Shown here piece by piece: positions 3,310 to 19,381 of a stretch of DNA of 64,000 bases. Positions within the stretch are counted from its first letter, which is position 1, and each line of letters begins with the position of its first letter. Under the pieces are notes generated by a model. It had not been told where the DNA came from, did no database searches, and worked only from the letters and a program-made list of their open reading frames with translations. Source of the DNA: Ancylobacter aquaticus (lineage in GTDB: Bacteria; Pseudomonadota; Alphaproteobacteria; Rhizobiales; Xanthobacteraceae); assembly GCF_004339465.1 (NCBI RefSeq), contig NZ_SMFY01000003.1, positions 248,001 to 312,000 on the forward strand, given 5' to 3'. The position numbers were made by a program, and so were the translations under genes.

Positions 3310-4245
3310 ATGTCGCGCCGCTTCGAAATCCCCGCCACGCCGGAGAACATGGTGCTGGGCTATCTCGACAGCACCACGCCCCCGGTGCTGGAGGTGGCCT
3401 CGGGAGACGTGGTGACGCTGCATTCCTTCCCCGCTGGCGGCAAGGAGACGCTGCCGGACAATTTGCCGGTTCCGGCCGACTACATGGCCGCGCTCGACAC
3501 GCTGCCGCCGGGGCCGGGGCCCCATTTCATCACCGGCCCGGTCTATGTGCAGGGCGCCCAGCCAGGCGACACGCTGCAGGTGGACATTCTCGACGTGAAG
3601 GTGCGCCAGGACTGGGGCTTCGTCTCGATCCTGCCGCTGCTTGGCACGCTGCCGGACGAGTTCACCGACTACGAGACCATCCACCCCGTGGTCGACCACG
3701 CCAAAAATGTCTGCGTGATGCCGTGGGGCACGGAAATTCCGCTCGACCCGTTCTTCGGCATCATCGCCACCGCCCCGCCGCCGGCCTGGGGTCGCTGCGG
3801 TTCGCCGGTGCCGCGCGCCTTTGGCGGCAACATGGACAACAAGGAACTGCGCGCTGGCACCACGCTCTATCTGCCGGTGTTCAACGAGGGCGCGCTGTTC
3901 TTCGCCGGCGATGGGCATGGCGTGCAGGGCGATGGCGAGGTGTGTATTACCGCGCTGGAAACCGGCGTCACCGGCACGTTTCGCCTCACTTTGCGCAAGG
4001 ACATGCGACTCGACTGGCCCTTTGCCGAGAGTGCCACGCACCTGATGTCGATCGGCCTCGACGAGGATCTCGACGACGCCGCCAAGCAGGCGACGCGCGA
4101 AATGGTCAAGCATGTATGCGAGCGCACCAACCTCTCGCGCAACCAGGCCTACATGCTGTGCTCGCTGGCGGGAAACCTGCGGGTGACGCAGATGGTGGAC
4201 GGTAACAAGGGCGTCCACATGCTGCTGGCCAAATCGCTGCTCTGA
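3310..4245 (+). CDS. Acetamidase/formamidase family amidohydrolase
   Basis: Protein of 311 aa from the FmdA_AmdA family, which releases ammonia from formamide or acetamide. Family hallmarks are HFITGPVYVQGAQPGDTL near residue 75, the metal-site region FFGIIATAPP, FGGNMDNKEL, and the GDGHGVQGDGEV segment near residue 205. It lacks a signal peptide, so it is cytosolic. Its place right after urtE implies uptake-coupled hydrolysis of a short amide, as known for the fmd transport/amidase clusters of methylotrophs. Formamide versus acetamide cannot be decided here. Confidence 0.85.
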   Translation: MSRRFEIPATPENMVLGYLDSTTPPVLEVASGDVVTLHSFPAGGKETLPDNLPVPADYMAALDTLPPGPGPHFITGPVYVQGAQPGDTLQVDILDVKVRQDWGFVSILPLLGTLPDEFTDYETIHPVVDHAKNVCVMPWGTEIPLDPFFGIIATAPPPAWGRCGSPVPRAFGGNMDNKELRAGTTLYLPVFNEGALFFAGDGHGVQGDGEVCITALETGVTGTFRLTLRKDMRLDWPFAESATHLMSIGLDEDLDDAAKQATREMVKHVCERTNLSRNQAYMLCSLAGNLRVTQMVDGNKGVHMLLAKSLL

Positions 4246-10707: not shown

Positions 10708-12036
10708 TCACAGTCCGGCCATGGGGCGCGGGCGCGAGCCGTCGAAGAAGCGCGACAGGCGGTAGGGCTGCGGGTCGGCGATCGGCCGGGCGCCGGTGAC
10801 GAGATCGGCGACCAGATGGCCGGCGCCCGGCCCGATGCCGAAGCCGTGGCCGGAGAAGCCGGCGGCGACGACAAGGCCGGACACCGTGTCGACAGGGGAA
10901 ATGACCGGCACCGCATCCGGCGTTGCGTCGATGAAGCCGGCCCAGCTCTGCACCATCCGCGCTCCCGCGAAGGCGGGGAAGCGTCGCTGAAGCGCTGCGA
11001 ATGCCTCTGCGAGATAATGGTTGTCCGGGGCAGGATCGAGCACCCGCACCGCCTCGTAGACCGAAGGTTCATCGAAGGTGCGCCGCGCGCGCTCCCGCCA
11101 TTCGGTGACGAAGCGCGGGCCGAGGCGCAGCCGGACCGAGGCGAATTCCATCCGCAATGCGGGCAGGAAGTCGAAGGCGAAGCGGAAACTGTCCGGCACG
11201 ATCGGCACCACGTTCACATGGCCGTTGGCGATGGTGTAGCCGCCATCCTCCCGGCGCCGGAAGGCGAAATCATGGTCCCACAGCGCCGGTGTCGGGCCGC
11301 CCGCCACTGGCGAGGTGCGCAGCACGCTGGCGCGCACCTTCAACTGCGGCAGGTCGATGCCGACATCGCGCAGGATGCGCCGGGTCCACGCCCCGCCGGC
11401 GACCACGACATGGGGCGTGGCGATTCGCCCGCGCTCGGTGATAGCGGCGATCACCTTTCCACCGCCGGTCTCGACGCCCCGCACCGCGCAATCGGTGAGG
11501 ATGAGGGCGCCGCGCCGGCGCGCCGCCTCGGCGATGGCAGGCGCAGCCCGCTGCGGTTCCGCCCGTCCGTCGGAGGAGCACCAGAGCGCGGCGGGCGGGG
11601 GCCGGGTATCGCCGGGCATATGGTGCGCGAGCGCTGCGCCGGAGAGCATCTCGGCCTGAATGCCCGCCCCGGCGGCGTCCCTCACCCAGTCGGCGAAGGA
11701 GGCCTCCTTCTTCGCGTCATTGGCGGCGAAGAGAATGCCTGTGGTGGTGAAGCCGGTGGAGGCGCCGATATGCGCGTCCATGCCGCGCCACAGGCGCAGC
11801 GCCTCGCGGATCAGCTCGAACTCGCGCGGGTCACGCTTGGCCTGCCGGCACCAGCCCCAGTTGCGGCTGGATTGTTCGCCGGCAATGTGCCCCTTCTCGC
11901 AGAGAACGACCTTGAGGCCGCGTTCGGCGAGATAGAGCGCGCTGGTGGTGCCGATTATGCCACCTCCGACGATCACCACATCGGCGTCGGGCGGGCAGGT
12001 GGGGTCGGAAGCGACGGGTACGACCTGGGGTCCCAT
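10708..12036 (-). CDS. FAD-dependent oxidoreductase (DAO family)
   Basis: Flavoenzyme of 442 aa with VVIVGGGIIGTTSAL near residue 21 and the segment GEQSSRNWGWCRQ near residue 52, which is typical of sarcosine-dehydrogenase and opine-oxidase-like DAO enzymes. The C-terminus carries GFSGHGFGIGPGAG, the FAD-contacting loop. No signal peptide is seen. It is transcribed from a good -24/-12 promoter at 12102-12117 and precedes a second DAO enzyme by 28 bases. The exact amine or amino acid substrate cannot be told. Confidence 0.8.
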   Translation of the reverse strand: MGPQVVPVASDPTCPPDADVVIVGGGIIGTTSALYLAERGLKVVLCEKGHIAGEQSSRNWGWCRQAKRDPREFELIREALRLWRGMDAHIGASTGFTTTGILFAANDAKKEASFADWVRDAAGAGIQAEMLSGAALAHHMPGDTRPPPAALWCSSDGRAEPQRAAPAIAEAARRRGALILTDCAVRGVETGGGKVIAAITERGRIATPHVVVAGGAWTRRILRDVGIDLPQLKVRASVLRTSPVAGGPTPALWDHDFAFRRREDGGYTIANGHVNVVPIVPDSFRFAFDFLPALRMEFASVRLRLGPRFVTEWRERARRTFDEPSVYEAVRVLDPAPDNHYLAEAFAALQRRFPAFAGARMVQSWAGFIDATPDAVPVISPVDTVSGLVVAAGFSGHGFGIGPGAGHLVADLVTGARPIADPQPYRLSRFFDGSRPRPMAGL

Positions 12037-12177: not shown

Positions 12178-13767
12178 TCAGAACCCCATCGCTGCGCCGT
12201 CGCTGCGGGGGTCATTCGCCCCCTCCAGCCGCCCATCGGACTGGCGCACGATGGCCCCGGCATGGCCCATCATGGCGTCGAAGGGCGCCACCGTCTCCAC
12301 CTCGTGCCCAGCCGCGCGCAGCGCGTCGACGAGAGCCGGCGGGAAGCGGTCCTCCAGCTTCAGCGACACCGTTTCCGCGCCCCAGGTGCGCCCCAGAAGC
12401 CAACGCGGCGCGGTGATCGCCGCCTGCAGCTCCTGCCCGAACATCGCGTAGCGCGAGAACAGCGCGGCCTGCGTCTGCGGCTGACCCTCGCCACCCATGG
12501 TGCCGTAGACCATGTGACGGCCGTCCTCGAACTGCGCCATGGCCGGGTTAAGGGTGTGGAACGGCTTGCGGCCGGGCGCCAGCACGCGGGGGCTCTCGCC
12601 TTTGAGGGCGAAGCTTGAGCCGCGATTCTGCCAGACGATGCCGGTTTGCGGCAGCACGACGCCGGAGCCGAACTCGAAATAGATGCTCTGGATGAAGCTG
12701 ACCGCCAGCCCGTTGCCGTCAATGGCGCCGAGCCAGACCGTGTCGCCGGCCGACGGCGGCGCCGGCCAGGGCAGGGCGCGCGCGGGGTCGATGCGGGCGG
12801 CAAGGTCGTCGAGCGCGGTATCGGTCAGCCAGTCGCGCGGATCGCCGGTCATCGCGTCGGGATCGCCGATGAGGCAGTCGCGCACCAGAAAAGCCTGCTT
12901 GGTCGCCTCAACCAGTCCGTGCAGATGCGCGAAATCCTCGCCCTCCCTCACGCGGAGCCGGCTGAACAGAGCGAGGATCATGAGCGAGGCCAGCCCCTGC
13001 GTCGGCGGGGGGAAATTGTAGAGCCGCATGCCCGGAAGCTTCACCGACAGCGGCGCCACCCGGCTGGCCCGGCAGCCGGCGAGGTCTTCCAGTGTCACCG
13101 GCGAGCCGGCGGCCGCTAGATCATGGGCGATCTCGCGCGCCAGGGCGCCGCGATAGAAGCTCTCGGTGCCCTCATTGCCCAGCCGGTGCAGGGTCTCGCC
13201 CAGCGCCGGCAGCTTCAGGGTCGATCCGGTCGCCGGGGCGGCGCCGTTCACCAGGAAGGTGTCGGCGAAGCCCGAGACGTGGCCCAATTCGGGGCGCTTC
13301 TCCGCCGTCAGTTCGCTCTGGCTGGCGGTGACGGCGAAGCCGTTGCGGGCGTGCCAGACCGCGTCTTCGACGAGGCGCGACAGCGGTAGCCTGCCGCCGC
13401 GCTCGACGCTCAGCGCCAGCGCCTCGCCCCAACCGGCGATGGTGCCGGCGGTAGTGTTGGCAGCAAGCGGCCCGCGCTGGGGGATCGCCTCATGCCCGGC
13501 GTCGAAATAAAGCTCCGGGCTCGCCGCCCTCGCGGCCCGGCTGCAGGCGTCGATGGCGACGGGCTCCTCGCCCGGCGCGCCGATCAGCCAGAATCCGTCG
13601 CCGCCGATGGCGGTCATGTGGGGATAGACGACAGCGAGCGCCGCCGCCATGGCCATGGTCGCTTCCACCGCATTGCCGCCCTCGCGCAGCACGCGCAGCC
13701 CCGCCTCGCTGGCGAGATGGTGCGGCGATGTCACCATGCCACGGCGGGCACGAACGGTATTCAGCAT
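12178..13767 (-). CDS. Gamma-glutamyltransferase family protein
   Basis: N-terminal nucleophile hydrolase of 529 aa, GGT family. It opens with MVTSPHHLASEAGLRVLREGGNAVEATMA-type sequence (the conserved region that lines the glutamyl site). The likely autoprocessing threonine is Thr343 in GDTVWLG, followed by GNGLAVSFIQSI; this DTVW form belongs to the YwrD-like branch rather than the classic secreted GGT. No signal peptide is visible, so it is probably cytosolic. It starts 15 bases after the TRAP large permease stop and is therefore the last gene of the TRAP operon. Confidence 0.85.
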   Translation of the reverse strand: MLNTVRARRGMVTSPHHLASEAGLRVLREGGNAVEATMAMAAALAVVYPHMTAIGGDGFWLIGAPGEEPVAIDACSRAARAASPELYFDAGHEAIPQRGPLAANTTAGTIAGWGEALALSVERGGRLPLSRLVEDAVWHARNGFAVTASQSELTAEKRPELGHVSGFADTFLVNGAAPATGSTLKLPALGETLHRLGNEGTESFYRGALAREIAHDLAAAGSPVTLEDLAGCRASRVAPLSVKLPGMRLYNFPPPTQGLASLMILALFSRLRVREGEDFAHLHGLVEATKQAFLVRDCLIGDPDAMTGDPRDWLTDTALDDLAARIDPARALPWPAPPSAGDTVWLGAIDGNGLAVSFIQSIYFEFGSGVVLPQTGIVWQNRGSSFALKGESPRVLAPGRKPFHTLNPAMAQFEDGRHMVYGTMGGEGQPQTQAALFSRYAMFGQELQAAITAPRWLLGRTWGAETVSLKLEDRFPPALVDALRAAGHEVETVAPFDAMMGHAGAIVRQSDGRLEGANDPRSDGAAMGF

Positions 13768-13782
13768 GTCACGGAACTCCGG

Positions 13783-15108
13783 CTACCAGCCGATCGCCTT
13801 CGGCAGCCAAGTCGCTACCGCAGGGAAGGTGAAGAGCAGCGCCACGGCGCAGATCTGCAGGGCGATAAAGGGAATGACGCCCCGGTAGATTTCGGCGGTC
13901 GTCACCTCGGGTGGCGCCACCCCGCGCAGATAGAACAGCGCCCAGCCGAAGGGCGGGGTGAGGAACGAGGTCTGCAGCACGGTGGCAATCAGCGCGGCGG
14001 CCCAGATGAGGTCGACATTGGCGTTGATCAGCAGCGGCAGGAACATCGGTACAACGATGTAGCTGATCTCGATCCACTCGATGAAGAAGCCGAGCACGAA
14101 GATGATGAGCAGCATGAAAATGAGAATGCCATCGGTGCCACCCGGCACCATAGCGAAGGCGTCGTGCACCAGCCGCTCACCCCCGAGGCCCCTGAAGGTC
14201 AGCGCGAAAACCTGCGAGCAGATGAGCACGAAGAACATCATGGCGGTGATGCGCGCTGTGGTCTGCACCGTGTCGACCAGCGTCTTCAGCGTGAAACGGC
14301 GGGCGAAGGCGGCGACGAGAATAGAGCCGAGCGCACCCATGCTGGCGGCTTCCGTCGGCGCGGCGACGCCGCCGATGATAGAGCCGAGCACGGCGAGCAC
14401 GAGACCGATTGGTGGCAGGCCGACCTTCAGTGCCTTCAGCCACAGCTCGCCGCGCGGCATCGCCTGACGCTCCGCAAGCGGGATCGCGGGCACTTTTTCC
14501 GGCCAGATGACGCCGACCAGCAGCATGTACACGCAGAAGATGCCGGTGAGCATCAGTCCGGGCATGAGGGCGGCGGCGAACAGTGTGCCGACGGATTCGC
14601 CGAGAATGTCGGCGAGCAGGATGAGGATGGTCGAGGGCGGGATGAGCTGGCCGAGCGTTCCGGAAGCGCAGATGGCGCCGCAGGAGAGGCTGCGGTCATA
14701 GCCGCGCCGCAGGAGGGTAGGCAATGTGAGCAGGCCCAGCGTGACGATGGTGGCGCCGACAATGCCCGTGGTGGCGCCCATCAGCATGCCGACCAGCACG
14801 ATGCCGAGCCCCATGCCGCCGCGCAGGCTGCCCGAGAGATGACCGATCACCTCCATCAGCTCGTCGGCGAGGCGCGACTTCTCCAGCATCACGCCCATGA
14901 ACACGAAGAGCGGAATGGCGATCAGCGTGTAGTTGGCCGTGACGCCGTATATGCGCGCCGGCAGCAGGCCGAACAGCGTGGTGCCGAAGCCGAGCCAGCC
15001 GAAGAAGAAGCCACTAATCGCCAGAGTGAGGGCCACCGGCACGCCGATGAGCAGCATGACGAAGAAGGAGGCGATGCAGGCGATCGCCAGGATTTCATTG
15101 TACGGCAT
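13783..15108 (-). CDS. TRAP transporter large permease (DctM family)
   Basis: Ion-coupled membrane subunit of 441 aa with about twelve hydrophobic segments. Typical signs are the IGVPVALTLAISG start, IPLFVFMGVMLEKS near residue 60, GAICASGTLGQLIPPST near residue 145 and FFIEWIEISYI in the C-terminal part. The ATG at 15108 is chosen because it gives the normal DctM N-terminus; it overlaps the small permease gene by 14 bases. It works with the DctQ and DctP proteins encoded just upstream. Confidence 0.9.
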   Translation of the reverse strand: MPYNEILAIACIASFFVMLLIGVPVALTLAISGFFFGWLGFGTTLFGLLPARIYGVTANYTLIAIPLFVFMGVMLEKSRLADELMEVIGHLSGSLRGGMGLGIVLVGMLMGATTGIVGATIVTLGLLTLPTLLRRGYDRSLSCGAICASGTLGQLIPPSTILILLADILGESVGTLFAAALMPGLMLTGIFCVYMLLVGVIWPEKVPAIPLAERQAMPRGELWLKALKVGLPPIGLVLAVLGSIIGGVAAPTEAASMGALGSILVAAFARRFTLKTLVDTVQTTARITAMMFFVLICSQVFALTFRGLGGERLVHDAFAMVPGGTDGILIFMLLIIFVLGFFIEWIEISYIVVPMFLPLLINANVDLIWAAALIATVLQTSFLTPPFGWALFYLRGVAPPEVTTAEIYRGVIPFIALQICAVALLFTFPAVATWLPKAIGW

Positions 15109-15643
15109 TGGCAGGCACCTGCGCGGGAGGCTCGGCCTCCCCGCCGAGGAAGGGGAGGAGCGCGCGCAGCGTGGCAGCAAGGCTCTGGAGGAGCAGCAGC
15201 ACGAAGCCGGCCGGGATCATCGCCTTGATGATGAAGCGATAGGGTAGCCCTCCGGGATCGGGCGAGCCTTCGCCGATGCGGTAGGACTGCATCACGTAGC
15301 GCCAAGACAGGAAGATGATGATGACCGACAGCGCCACCACGCTCAGCGCCGAGAACAGGTCGATCCCTTGGCGCACGCGCAAGGGCAGGCGGGCATAGAG
15401 AATGTCTACCCGTACATGGCCTTCATGCTTGATCGTGTAGGCGATGCACAGCAGCGTCAACGGTGCCATCAGGTGCCATTCCAGCTCCTGCATCGCCACC
15501 GAGCCGGTGTTGAAGGCGTAGCGCATCAACACATTGCCGGCCATGACGAGGACGAGCGCGAAGCCCGTCCACGCCGCAACCCAGCCGCAGGCCTCGACGA
15601 TGGCGTCGAGGCCGCGGGCGCATTTTTCCAGTGCGGAGGTCAT
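15095..15643 (-). CDS. TRAP transporter small permease (DctQ family)
   Basis: Four-helix membrane subunit, 182 aa. MRYAFNTGSVAMQELEWHL near residues 40-58 is the standard DctQ signature and HVRVDILYARLP follows near residue 80. The ATG at 15643 overlaps the stop of the binding-protein gene by four bases, so the three TRAP genes are translationally linked. Confidence 0.88.
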   Translation of the reverse strand: MTSALEKCARGLDAIVEACGWVAAWTGFALVLVMAGNVLMRYAFNTGSVAMQELEWHLMAPLTLLCIAYTIKHEGHVRVDILYARLPLRVRQGIDLFSALSVVALSVIIIFLSWRYVMQSYRIGEGSPDPGGLPYRFIIKAMIPAGFVLLLLQSLAATLRALLPFLGGEAEPPAQVPANAVQ

Positions 15644-16734
15644 GAGCCCCTGCGGATCTGGGTCTGGTAGACGGCTTCCGAGAGGCCAGCCCACTGGCTG
15701 TGCTTTTCGGCGAAGGCGGTGAAGCTGTCATACACCTTCTTGATCTTCGGGTCGGAATCGGCGAGCTGCTGCAACGTGGTGGTCGTGACTTCGCGCAGCT
15801 TGTCGACCACCGGCTTCGGGTAGGGCCCGGCGATCACGCCCTGGTTCTGCACCAGATCGACCATCGCCTCGCCATTGGTCGCCTCGCACCAGGTGTGGCT
15901 GATGACGTTGCAGGCGGCGGCGGCGACGCGGACGATCTCCTTGAGGTCGTCGGGCAGCGAGTTCCAGGCGGTCTTGTTGACGATCAGTTCGGTGACATTG
16001 TTCGGCTCGTGCCAGCCGGTGGTGTAGTAATACTTGGCGGCCTTCTGCAGGCCGAGGCGCCGGTCCTGATAGGGGCCGACGAACTCGGCGGCGTCGATCA
16101 CGCCGCGCTCCAGCGCCGGGAAGATCTCGCCGCCGGGCAGCAGCTTCACGTCGACGCCGAGCTGGGAATAGACCTTCCCGGCGAGGCCGGGGATGCGCAT
16201 CTTGAGGCCCTTGAAATCCTCGACCTTCTCGATCGGATTGCGGAACCAGCCGGACATCTGCACGCCGGTATTGCCCAGCGGCATCGGCACGAGATTGAAG
16301 GGGTCGTAGAGCTCTTCCCAGAGCTGGAGGCCGCCGCCATGGTAGATCCAGGCGTTCTGACCCTGGAAGTTCAGGCCGAACGGCACGCAGGTGAAGAACT
16401 GCGCGGCAGGCACCTTGCCCGCCCAGAAATACGAGTTGGCGGCGTTCATCTCGACCGTGCCGGACGACACCGCATCGAAGCCCTCAAGCGCCGGAATCAG
16501 CTCGCCAGCCGCGAAATGCTGAATCTTGAGGCGACCGCTCGACATCTTGTCGACCAGCTCGCAGAAATAGGTCGGGCTGCCCGGGCCGGTGACATAGAAG
16601 GGCGCGCCGGGACCATAGGCATTGGTCATCTTCCAGCTGAACGTCTCCTGGGCGCGGGCGACGTGCGGCGCGGCGAGCGTGACGGCAGCGGCGGTGCCGG
16701 CAAGGCCGGCCCCCAGAAATCCACGGCGATCCAT
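15640..16734 (-). CDS. TRAP transporter substrate-binding protein (DctP family)
   Basis: Periplasmic binding protein of 364 aa. The start MDRRGFLGAG begins a twin-arginine type signal ending AAPHVARAQ near residue 30. The mature part contains FSWKMTNAYGPGAPF, GLKMRIPGLAGKV and the EIFPALERGVIDAAEFVGPY segment that carries the ligand-binding arginine/aromatic region of this family. The ligand is unknown; keto acids and amino-acid-like anions are usual for the family. The operon is DctP-DctQ-DctM-GGT and is divergent from the AraC-amidase fusion. Confidence 0.88.
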   Translation of the reverse strand: MDRRGFLGAGLAGTAAAVTLAAPHVARAQETFSWKMTNAYGPGAPFYVTGPGSPTYFCELVDKMSSGRLKIQHFAAGELIPALEGFDAVSSGTVEMNAANSYFWAGKVPAAQFFTCVPFGLNFQGQNAWIYHGGGLQLWEELYDPFNLVPMPLGNTGVQMSGWFRNPIEKVEDFKGLKMRIPGLAGKVYSQLGVDVKLLPGGEIFPALERGVIDAAEFVGPYQDRRLGLQKAAKYYYTTGWHEPNNVTELIVNKTAWNSLPDDLKEIVRVAAAACNVISHTWCEATNGEAMVDLVQNQGVIAGPYPKPVVDKLREVTTTTLQQLADSDPKIKKVYDSFTAFAEKHSQWAGLSEAVYQTQIRRGS

Positions 16735-17026
16735 GTTGTTCCCCTTGTCTGGATGGGGCGCTGCCTGAGCCTGCGGCGCGCCCTGATCAGGCTCAAGGAA
16801 ACGCTGCCCTGAGGGGAGGGGCAATGCCCCATTGGGGGCAATGGCGCAGCATGGCTGCTTCGCAATCTCCGCCGGCCGAGGCGTTATCGCAATGAAGCCC
16901 GTTAGTTACGGAGAAGTGACGCGATATTGTGCGGCCGTCGACCTCTGGAGCGCGACAAGTTTTTGTGCGCCGTTCGTCAAAGTGCTTCACTGCGAAGATG
17001 GCCACTCACCGTGTAGACCGCCGCAC
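16735..17026. promoter_or_regulatory. Divergent control region between TRAP operon and AraC-amidase fusion
   Basis: The 292-base gap contains a direct repeat GGGGCAATG at 16818-16826 and 16835-16843 (17 bases start to start), a dyad TGCCCC-ATTG-GGGGCA at 16825-16840 overlapping it, an inverted repeat GAGCCTG/CAGGCTC at 16767-16794 and the 10-bp palindrome CCTGATCAGG at 16782-16791. Direct repeats at this spacing are typical of AraC-family sites. The region lies immediately upstream of the TRAP binding-protein gene. Confidence 0.45.
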
Positions 17027-19381
17027 ATGAACCGCGCCGCTCCGATTTCGATCAACGCCTTTCCCGCCAGCAAGCAGGAAGCCGCCTGGCGCGAGACGCT
17101 GGCCGACCTCGCTCTAGTGGCGCGGATGCCGAAGGATGCGGTGTTCCATTTCGGCGAGGTGTCGATCAAGAGGTCGCCGACCCAGGCCACCTTCGCCCTG
17201 CTGCGCTCGCGGGCGCAGGACCTTTCCCCGCTGGTCGATGCCGAGCCGCAGATCCTGATCGGCTTCGTCAATTATGGCCGTGGCCACCTCACCGATTCCG
17301 GCCGCCGCGCGGCGGAGTTCGCGGATGGCGATCTGTGGGTCTGCGATCCGACGACGCGGTTCTCGGTGCAGTTCCGCAATGATTTCGAGTTGCTGCTGCT
17401 GCGCCTGCCGCGCGAGCGGCTGGTGGGGCGCCTTGGTCGCGCCGCCAGCGTGCCGACGTTGGTGCTCGGCGAATCCATTTCCGCGCTCGCCGCCCGCCCC
17501 ATGATGCGTGCCCTAGCGGCCCATTTCGCGATGATGGAGGATGGCGACGTGATGGCGGCCGAGCCGGCCATCACCGAACTTGTCCTTTCCGCCCTGCTGG
17601 CCGAGGCCCGGCCGGAGGAAGACAACGCTACTCAGGTTCAGGCCGCCCATTTCGCCCGGGTGTGCGGGCAGATCGAAGCGCGGCTGCGGGAGCCGGACCT
17701 TTCGGTCGCCGACATCGCCAAGGCCGAGGGCCTGTCGGCACGTTACATCCAGCGCTTGTTCGAGGGGCAGGACCGTTCCTTCTCCGACTATGTGCGCCAT
17801 CGCCGGCTGGAACAGTGCCGGCTCGATCTGGTCAACCCCCAGCATGCCGACCGTTCCATCGCCGAGATTGGTTTTCGCTGGGGTTTTGGCGATCAGGCGC
17901 ATTTCAGCCGGGTGTTCAGTGCCGCCTACGCCATTTCGCCGCGCGACTACCGCAAAACCGCCGGCTCGACCGTCGCGACCCGTTGGACGCGCGGGCGCCC
18001 GATGCATTCGGGCTCGCGCCCGGTGCGACCCGGTCCGCACGCCGCCGCTCCCGCCACCCCGGACGCTGTCGGGCTGGACACGACCCCGCCGGATGTCGCC
18101 ACCCCTGCGTCTCCGGAGGCGGGTGCGCCCGGCGAACACTATCTGGCTGTGACGCGCGACACGGTGCATTGGGGCTATCTCTCCCGCACCATCCCGCCGG
18201 TGCTGCGCGTGCGCTCGGGCGCCCGTGTCACGGTCGAGACCCTGACCCAGCACGCCTCGGACGATCCGGAGCGGATGATCCAGGGCGATGCCGGCGCCGA
18301 GAGCGTGTTTCGCTGGACGCGCGATTTCAAGGCGGTGGACCGGCGCGGCGCCGGCCCGGTCAACGCCTCCATTTTCGGGCGCGGGGCTGGCGAGGGTTTT
18401 GGCGTGCACATCTGCACCGGGCCGATCTTCGTCCACGGCGCCGAGCCGGGCGACGTGCTGGAGGTGGAGATTCTCGATCTGCGCCCGCGCCCCTGCGCCA
18501 ACCCGGCCTATACGGGGCAGGCCTTCGGCTCCAATGCCGCGGCGGCCTGGGGCTTCCACCATGACGATATTCTCGACGAGCCGCGCAAACGCGAGGTGAT
18601 CACGGTCTACCGCACCGACGCGGCCGGCGAGAGCGGCTTCGCCGAGGCGATCTATTCCTTCCGCTGGGTGCCGCAGACCGACCCGTTCGGCGTGCTGCAC
18701 GAGACGATCGACTATCCCGGCGTGCCGGTGGACCATGCCCGCATCGAGAAGCGCGAGGGCGTGCTCAAGGGCGCCCGCATCCCGGTGCGCCCGCATTTCG
18801 GCTTCATCGCGGTCGCCCCGCGCGAGACCGACATCGTCGATTCCGTGCCGCCCGGCTATTTCGGCGGCAATATCGACAATTGGCGGGCGGGAAAGGGCGC
18901 GAGTGTCTATCTCCCGGTGGCGGTGCCGGGGGCGCTGCTCTCGCTCGGCGATCCGCATCTGGCGCAGGGCGATGGCGAGATCAGCGGCACGGCGCTGGAA
19001 TGCTCGCTGACCGGGCAGGTGCGCCTCGTCCTGCACAAGCGCGGCGAGACGGAGAAGGTGTTTCTCAACGGGTTGGCGGCACCGCTCATCGAGACGCCGG
19101 ATGCCTGGCTGCTGCACGGCTTCAGCTACACCAACTATCTCAGGGAACTGGGTCGCAACGCCCAGTCCGAAGTGTTCAAGCGCTCCTCGCTCAGCCGGGC
19201 GCTACGCAGCGCCTTTCGTGCCACCCGCAACTTCCTGATGGAACGCTACGGGCTGGACGAGGACGAGGCGATTTCGCTGATGTCGGTGGCGGTCGATTTC
19301 GGCGTCACCCAGGTCGCCGACGGAAATTGGGGCATTCATGCCAGGGTGTCGAAGGCGATCTTCGAGCCGCCGGGTGAGTAA
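17027..19381 (+). CDS. AraC-type regulator fused to an acetamidase/formamidase domain
   Basis: A 784-aa protein with two complete parts. Residues 1 to about 200 resemble the ligand-binding half of AraC/XylS regulators; residues about 207-310 are a double helix-turn-helix domain (LSVADIAKAEGLSARYIQRL and IAEIGFRWGFGDQAHFSRVF). A Pro/Ala-rich linker (about 311-368) leads to a full FmdA_AmdA domain to the C-terminus, with HICTGPIFVHGAEPGD, HFGFIAVAPRE, FGGNIDNWRA and AQGDGEISGTALE. The ATG at 17027 is preferred; earlier in-frame starts lie in the control region. It is divergent from the TRAP-GGT operon and probably regulates it. Confidence 0.85.
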   Translation: MNRAAPISINAFPASKQEAAWRETLADLALVARMPKDAVFHFGEVSIKRSPTQATFALLRSRAQDLSPLVDAEPQILIGFVNYGRGHLTDSGRRAAEFADGDLWVCDPTTRFSVQFRNDFELLLLRLPRERLVGRLGRAASVPTLVLGESISALAARPMMRALAAHFAMMEDGDVMAAEPAITELVLSALLAEARPEEDNATQVQAAHFARVCGQIEARLREPDLSVADIAKAEGLSARYIQRLFEGQDRSFSDYVRHRRLEQCRLDLVNPQHADRSIAEIGFRWGFGDQAHFSRVFSAAYAISPRDYRKTAGSTVATRWTRGRPMHSGSRPVRPGPHAAAPATPDAVGLDTTPPDVATPASPEAGAPGEHYLAVTRDTVHWGYLSRTIPPVLRVRSGARVTVETLTQHASDDPERMIQGDAGAESVFRWTRDFKAVDRRGAGPVNASIFGRGAGEGFGVHICTGPIFVHGAEPGDVLEVEILDLRPRPCANPAYTGQAFGSNAAAAWGFHHDDILDEPRKREVITVYRTDAAGESGFAEAIYSFRWVPQTDPFGVLHETIDYPGVPVDHARIEKREGVLKGARIPVRPHFGFIAVAPRETDIVDSVPPGYFGGNIDNWRAGKGASVYLPVAVPGALLSLGDPHLAQGDGEISGTALECSLTGQVRLVLHKRGETEKVFLNGLAAPLIETPDAWLLHGFSYTNYLRELGRNAQSEVFKRSSLSRALRSAFRATRNFLMERYGLDEDEAISLMSVAVDFGVTQVADGNWGIHARVSKAIFEPPGE

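Follow-up and report, generated by a model that had tools for sequence, protein, structure and literature searches.

A conserved AraC-type regulator carrying a whole acetamidase/formamidase domain as a candidate sensor in amide uptake and hydrolysis

Introduction

The recruitment of whole enzymes into regulatory proteins gave rise to MocR/GabR, PutA, BirA and Ada, which combine enzyme and regulator in one chain and of which some still catalyse. To our knowledge, none of them uses the acetamidase/formamidase (FmdA_AmdA) domain. In one group of AraC proteins, the GATRs, an enzyme-like part stands where the N-terminal sensor would be and takes up the effector. Regulators of the FeaR/CuxR type have, as far as we know, no amidase domain, and we know of no AraC protein whose chain includes a close paralogue of a stand-alone enzyme encoded alongside it.

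The nearest described kind to the protein reported here is the GATase-1-like AraC group, with which it has the logic in common but not the domain. The enzyme-like part of the GATRs GbdR and CdhR is glutamine amidotransferase-1-like. CdhR is reported to lie divergent from its catabolic operon and to bind direct repeats that precede the caiX promoter (PMC5806209). Our fusion has another enzyme fold, keeps an ordinary N-domain and adds a whole amidase at the C-terminus. No earlier account of an AraC plus FmdA_AmdA architecture was found among the papers listed from the open-licence literature, which is weak evidence that none exists.

Architecture of the fusion

The window is a stretch of 64,000 nucleotides of Ancylobacter aquaticus. 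At 17027-19381 of its forward strand, a single stop-free frame encodes a protein of 784 amino acids, delimited from its translation, Pfam, phmmer and orthologues; the extension of this open reading frame (ORF) upstream to 16832 is mechanical. The original prediction of an AraC regulator and a whole amidase in one frame is borne out by this intact protein and by its coverage with Pfam families and with the solved structure 3b9t.

The N-terminal residues 1-200 (17027-17626, forward strand) form a cupin-like AraC_binding_2 domain resembling that of FeaR and CuxR. Its Pfam match at residues 73-190 is marginal (28.6 bits against a curated cut-off of 27), its predicted fold is confident, and the solved CuxR structure (5nla) matches residues 40-314. 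An HTH_18 DNA-binding domain follows at residues 230-310 (17714-17956, forward strand), with 66.2 bits against a Pfam cut-off of 33.6, as in AraC/XylS proteins. These N-terminal 310 residues look like a regulator of the FeaR/CuxR kind and FeaR gives the best NCBIfam score, yet this score (128.1 bits) stays below the FeaR equivalog cut-off of 199 (NF007243). No GATase family was among the Pfam matches of the protein at E <= 0.001.

The FmdA_AmdA domain occupies residues 369-780 (18131-19366, forward strand) and carries Q408 and D765; it is supported by Pfam, phmmer and Foldseek. PF03069 matches residues 460-765 with 95.7 bits against a cut-off of 27, which places the domain in the family, and the score for the FmdA equivalog NF045496 is 63.1 bits against an NCBIfam cut-off of 500. 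The domain is complete, since the phmmer match to 3b9t spans residues 365-779 (5e-167). This acetamidase/formamidase of Methylobacillus flagellatus is 56% identical to the fused domain along its length and has the same fold. It differs in being a stand-alone protein, with a Tat signal by its title, and in reading HH where the window protein has QH at 408.

The linker between the two halves had been put at about 55 residues, and about 52 were found (residues 313-364, 17963-18118, forward strand), all predicted to be disordered with pLDDT below 50. Comparison of fused ORFs singled out within it an RGRP peptide at residues 322-325 (17990-18001, forward strand). An AlphaFold2 model built from 46 input sequences (mean pLDDT 81.7, pTM 0.70) consists of the cupin-like N-domain, the HTH helices, the disordered segment 313-364 and the amidase fold. 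Foldseek ranked 3b9t at the top for this model (TMt 0.92), with CuxR (5nla) leading among regulators.

Distribution

The fusion was searched for in 151 genomes, 30 of them in the genus of the window (its own genome counted) and 121 outside. HTH and amidase share one open frame in 28 of the 30 genus genomes, the exceptions being G003 and G023; in three of the 28 (G005, G017 and G025) the alignment begins only near residue 100. Close orthologues with the same open frame, at 81-100% identity, occur in 20 genomes, own included. A second fusion at 47-52% identity is present in 15 genomes of the genus, and 6 of the 121 outside genomes have fusion rows (G039, G052, G053, G054, G127 and G147).

A set of loci was also assembled by scanning one genome per species with peptides of the window protein and keeping the best 79 of 147 relatives; this set overlaps in species with the genus genomes. 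A fused ORF is present in 72 of these best 79 loci. The fused ORFs extend over Ancylobacter, Rhizobiaceae, Devosia, Roseibium, Parvibaculum, Novosphingobium, Sphingomonas, Asticcacaulis and Betaproteobacteria, and in 9 plasmid records 80% or more of the query is found at one place. The seven fetched loci L098, L100, L103 and L106-L109 carry a close standalone amidase without the fusion.

A read-through, frameshift or mis-assembled join was rejected, the same frame being open in the orthologues and in the 72 kept loci. The protein is thus not a simple read-through of two genes, as had been anticipated from the window, and its homologues do not exist only as two separate genes. One contig (LNEV01000002.1) carries two distinct fused regulators at a distance of about 23 kb (L043 and L054), one with a divergent amidase and the other of the TRAP-GGT type described next.

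Neighbouring genes

In the window, an operon lies divergently on the reverse strand, and its proposed TRAP-GGT identity is substantiated by Pfam matches to DctP, DctM and G_glu_transpept. It comprises the TRAP substrate-binding protein DctP (15640-16734, its start set by inspection at the methionine of MDRRGFLGAG), a small membrane subunit which is DctQ-like by position and hydrophobicity only (15095-15694, start uncertain), the large subunit DctM (13783-15180, start uncertain) and a gamma-glutamyltranspeptidase, GGT (12178-13767). An FAD-dependent oxidoreductase recognised by Pfam (DAO; 10708-12036, reverse strand) may belong to the same operon. By tblastn, DctP, DctQ, DctM and GGT were recovered, running away from the regulator, at 14 of 14 loci of the window clade, which comprises 12 Ancylobacter-type loci and two outside the genus, Rhizobium halophytocola (L042) and a MAG (L054).

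No neighbouring amidase was found within the window-clade loci. The window does contain, as predicted, a second protein of the family (PF03069) at 3310-4245 on the forward strand, behind ABC-transporter genes. It is distant and unlike the close partners found elsewhere, falling in the tree outside the clade of fused and close standalone domains. Its candidacy as the partner of the fusion is unsupported: it lies about 12.8 kb off, and the only candidate operator of the window is at 16956. This amidase probably belongs to a separate system.

Other lineages present a different setting. Outside the window clade, 48 fused loci from the best 79 of 147 offered at least 2.5 kb on both sides, with ORF ends set mechanically. 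A separate FmdA_AmdA ORF is found in 41 of them, within 500 bp in 25, and 17 of these 25 partners have at least 50% identity. The loci are related, so that partner counts, like the operator counts below, are not independent events. The window genome holds only seven proteins of the family in 4.8 Mb, two of them fused, and such adjacency is therefore far from chance. The many fused homologues beside TRAP or amide genes that the original prediction called for were thus found.

Three arrangements recur. In the first, a divergent amidase has an ERRxFLKS-type N-terminus which looks Tat-like by eye (for example in L041, L049 and L056). In the second, the fusion closes an operon of SBP-3, ABC permease-ATPase and amidase genes (L112, L114 and L128); the amidase directly upstream of the fusion is shorter and has no Tat-like N-terminus, and RidA is next in L112 and L114. 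The third, which some of the loci from Parvibaculum and from sphingomonads show, associates an amidase of about 38% identity with Rieske, LigB or MFS genes. The second fusion of the window genome, about 47% identical, itself stands in an SBP, ABC permease-ATPase, amidase and fusion operon (L128:4359-10737).

Descent and constraint

The amidase domains were placed in a tree by a quick method (LG+G4; 109 rows, near-copies above 92% dropped) comprising 61 fused, 27 close standalone and 21 distant amidases, with long branches among the distant rows. In this quick tree all 61 fused domains fall on one side of a single branch (SH-aLRT 99). Distances between HTH domains agree with those between amidase domains (Mantel r 0.81, reached in 0 of 2000 permutations; Spearman 0.59). 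The simplest reading of these sequences is a single fusion event and shared inheritance of the two parts thereafter.

The amidase domain is the most conserved part of the protein and the N-domain the least conserved of its folded parts, with mean pairwise identities of 64% for the amidase, 52% for the HTH, 27% for the N-domain and 21% for the linker (residues 319-365). Median dN/dS in the window clade, in the same order, is 0.137, 0.130, 0.238 and, for linker residues 319-365, 0.477, indicating that the fused amidase domain is still under selection. The linker is free to vary except for the peptide R-G-x-P (RGRP in the window), which all 102 fused ORFs contain, a count that takes in near-copies. 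The variable residue is R in 28 of 46 sequences of alignment A1 and otherwise W, K, L, S, M or V. With R it resembles an AT-hook core, which could add a DNA contact; the peptide may serve in DNA contact or in docking.

The amidase core

Among the 27 close standalone amidases 146 columns are invariant, and for 47 of these the conservation extends to 95% or more of the 21 distant amidases. The window protein retains the shared residues of the family, with GGNxD, GDxHxxQGDGE, E658, H461 and D765. No statement of the metal or catalytic residues of FmdA_AmdA proteins was found among the papers listed from the open-licence literature, or by a word search of PMC5052560. Over the 61 fused domains, 28 of the 47 shared columns never change. 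Residues H461, D476, E523, N615, D617, D642, H644, D649, E651, E658 and E689 are kept in 61 of 61, and H590 is likewise constant. Exceptions include Q647, replaced by L in 3 domains, V764, replaced by A in 31 with a gap in 1, and D765, the one exception among the acidic shared residues, replaced by N in 13 with a gap in 1. Six of the 146 columns are replaced in at least 30 fused domains (K387, H408, D531, Y629, S650 and V764), some swaps, such as S650G and Y629L, yielding letters found in distant family members too.

Residues 408 and 765 stand apart as a pair. H408 and D765 are both present in 27 of 27 close standalone amidases and in 18 of 21 distant ones. The fused domains read Q/D in 46 cases, H/N in 12, and Q/N, Q/gap and H/D in 1 each, so that the pair is broken in 60 of 61, through H408Q or D765N, against 0 of 27 close standalone amidases. 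Among 351 sufficiently variable column pairs, 408/765, a pair picked after looking at the data, ranks first by the number of fused rows in which just one residue of the two is changed (59, with both changed in 1). D765N occurs mainly in one lineage, and the changes may therefore amount to only two or three events. Different lineages have thus lost this conserved pair through different changes. A full decay of the catalytic site, as a proof of sensing, was looked for and not found, and only the 408/765 pair fits it. As the best hint here of altered hydrolysis, this pair tends towards a reading in which the domain binds but its hydrolysis is changed or absent.

Candidate operator

A conserved box of 28 bp at 16954-16981 (forward strand), identified by alignment and by a matrix scan with permutation control, is a candidate operator. 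Its sequence is GACAAGTTTTTGTGCGCCGTTCGTCAAA, made of the repeats GACAAG and GTCAAA 22 bp apart with TTTTGTGCG between them; two CAAR repeats thus recur at 22-bp spacing. AraC/XylS regulators bind direct repeats spaced by roughly two turns of the helix close to the promoter they control, and the box is a candidate for such a site. It lies in the shared intergenic region, upstream of both genes, 45 bp from the fusion start codon and some 220 bp from dctP, and forms one near-invariant block upstream of the gene in the alignment of the window with 14 clade members. Under the strict pattern, the box occurs once in the window and nowhere else in its own genome. A relaxed pattern gave 16 matches in that genome against 43 for a reversed control, and is uninformative on a wider regulon because the control exceeds it.

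A matrix built solely from the 15 window-clade sites was run on 58 other fused loci. In 17 of the 58 the best match lay no more than 450 bp ahead of a fused or amidase gene, where 3.2 were expected by area; for 200 column-permuted matrices of unchanged base composition the mean was 4.6 and the maximum 13. The other 41 best matches lie outside these first target regions. Upstream regions of SBP genes, chosen after seeing the matches, bring the count to 19 of 58 (permuted mean 5.8, maximum 14). Since the matrix itself selected the sites behind the consensus, only the permutation controls count.

Five plasmid loci have a box match before the amidase or ABC operon, ranking best in L110, L111 and L114, second in L113, and fourth and weak (5.5) in L112. 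In the Roseibium-type operon of L093 a box precedes the SBP gene. Matches are weak in L086 (3.6) and L091 (6.1), and no convincing box was found in L104 and L105 or at the second fusion of the window genome (best 1.3, before the SBP gene). Among the seven standalone-only loci, only L103 exceeds the shuffled maximum (7.8), with a match past the gene. Upstream of the ABC-amidase-fusion operon of a Neorhizobium plasmid (L114:3410-3459), two boxes overlap as a 22-bp tandem of three half-sites. A shorter conserved stretch at 16921-16937, TGACGCGATnTTGTGCG, lies about 33 bp upstream of the window box in several Ancylobacter loci and is perhaps an additional half-site.

Discussion

We consider it probable that the fusion is a regulator of amide uptake and hydrolysis which senses the amide through its amidase-derived domain. 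A complete AraC/XylS regulator, with cupin N-domain and HTH, would have gained once, at its C-terminus, a whole FmdA_AmdA domain that is a paralogue of the amidase the regulator family often adjoins. An amide or its product would enter through the neighbouring transporter and bind the amidase-derived pocket, where the altered His-Asp pair would let binding outlast or replace cutting; that this domain binds a ligand and that its hydrolysis is reduced we infer, as we do the identity of the amide. The ligand would change the seating of two protomers on the direct-repeat operator (two CAAR repeats 22 bp apart that flank TGTGCG), and the changed seating would switch the neighbouring amidase or transporter genes. 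Both DNA binding at the candidate box and activation rather than repression are presumed here. In the window clade, control would fall on the divergent TRAP-GGT operon and, probably, on the regulator gene itself. Against this reading count the 28 of 47 shared core columns left unchanged, with acidic, His and Asn residues all kept except D765, so that catalysis may persist, and the lack of an amidase neighbour within the window-clade loci.

These same observations bear on a bifunctional protein, whose working amidase domain would make the regulator destroy its own inducer and so limit itself, or would supply the amidase of the pathway where a partner is absent. The original prediction had left the domain as a sensor or as such an inducer-destroying enzyme; the fusion on which this choice rested proved real and conserved, and the choice itself meets a core that is mostly kept with the pair at 408/765 broken. 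We regard a bifunctional protein as unlikely. The eleven acidic, His and Asn positions and H590 unchanged in every fused domain speak for it, as do the dN/dS of 0.137 in a clade devoid of a neighbouring amidase and the S650G and Y629L letters shared with distant relatives, but most loci outside the window clade (41 of 48) have a dedicated amidase, Q647 has become L in 3 of 61 domains, and the His408-Asp765 pair, intact in every close standalone amidase, is broken in nearly all fused ones. Slightly less likely again, in our estimation, is a regulator bearing a catalytically working but slowed copy of its own pathway's enzyme as a self-timing switch. If this were true, the amide would be recognised by starting to cut it, the protein would be active only while the substrate lasts, and its timing would depend on the swapped His-Asp pair. 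The fused copy of the window clade would then have replaced the stand-alone enzyme, leaving one polypeptide as both regulator and amidase.

It is decidedly improbable that the cupin N-domain senses the effector while the role of the amidase domain is limited to oligomerising or positioning the protein. The protein does have an AraC_binding_2-like domain, which could sense, as in many AraC proteins, and several FmdA_AmdA entries are four-chained, which may or may not reflect an oligomer. However, among the folded parts conservation is lowest in the N-domain and highest in the amidase domain, and a scaffold would have no use for core residues that all 61 domains preserve. As for an artefactual join of two neighbouring genes by read-through, frameshift or mis-assembly, its probability is negligible: the frame stays open in the 20 close orthologues (own included, 81-100% identity) and in 72 of the 79 kept loci, and the R-G-x-P peptide persists in the linker of all 102 fused ORFs. 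The sensing of an amide by the amidase-derived domain remains the most probable reading.

Many soil and water bacteria have a regulator with a complete copy of an amidase, often beside its free-standing sister enzyme, which suggests a switch that senses its target compound with a borrowed enzyme. This natural case, where the extra domain of the regulator and the neighbouring enzyme are paralogues, makes the enzyme-to-sensor question directly testable, since the core is nearly all kept and one His-Asp pair is broken. The predicted operator links the regulator with amidases and with ABC or TRAP transporters. An annotation rule also follows, since the names given in five plasmid records go no further than 'acetamidase/formamidase family protein' or 'AraC family transcriptional regulator'. 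On a Caballeronia plasmid (L113:1-1491), nitrile hydratase genes lie close to the fusion-amidase-ABC cluster, hinting that a nitrile may be the source of the amide there.
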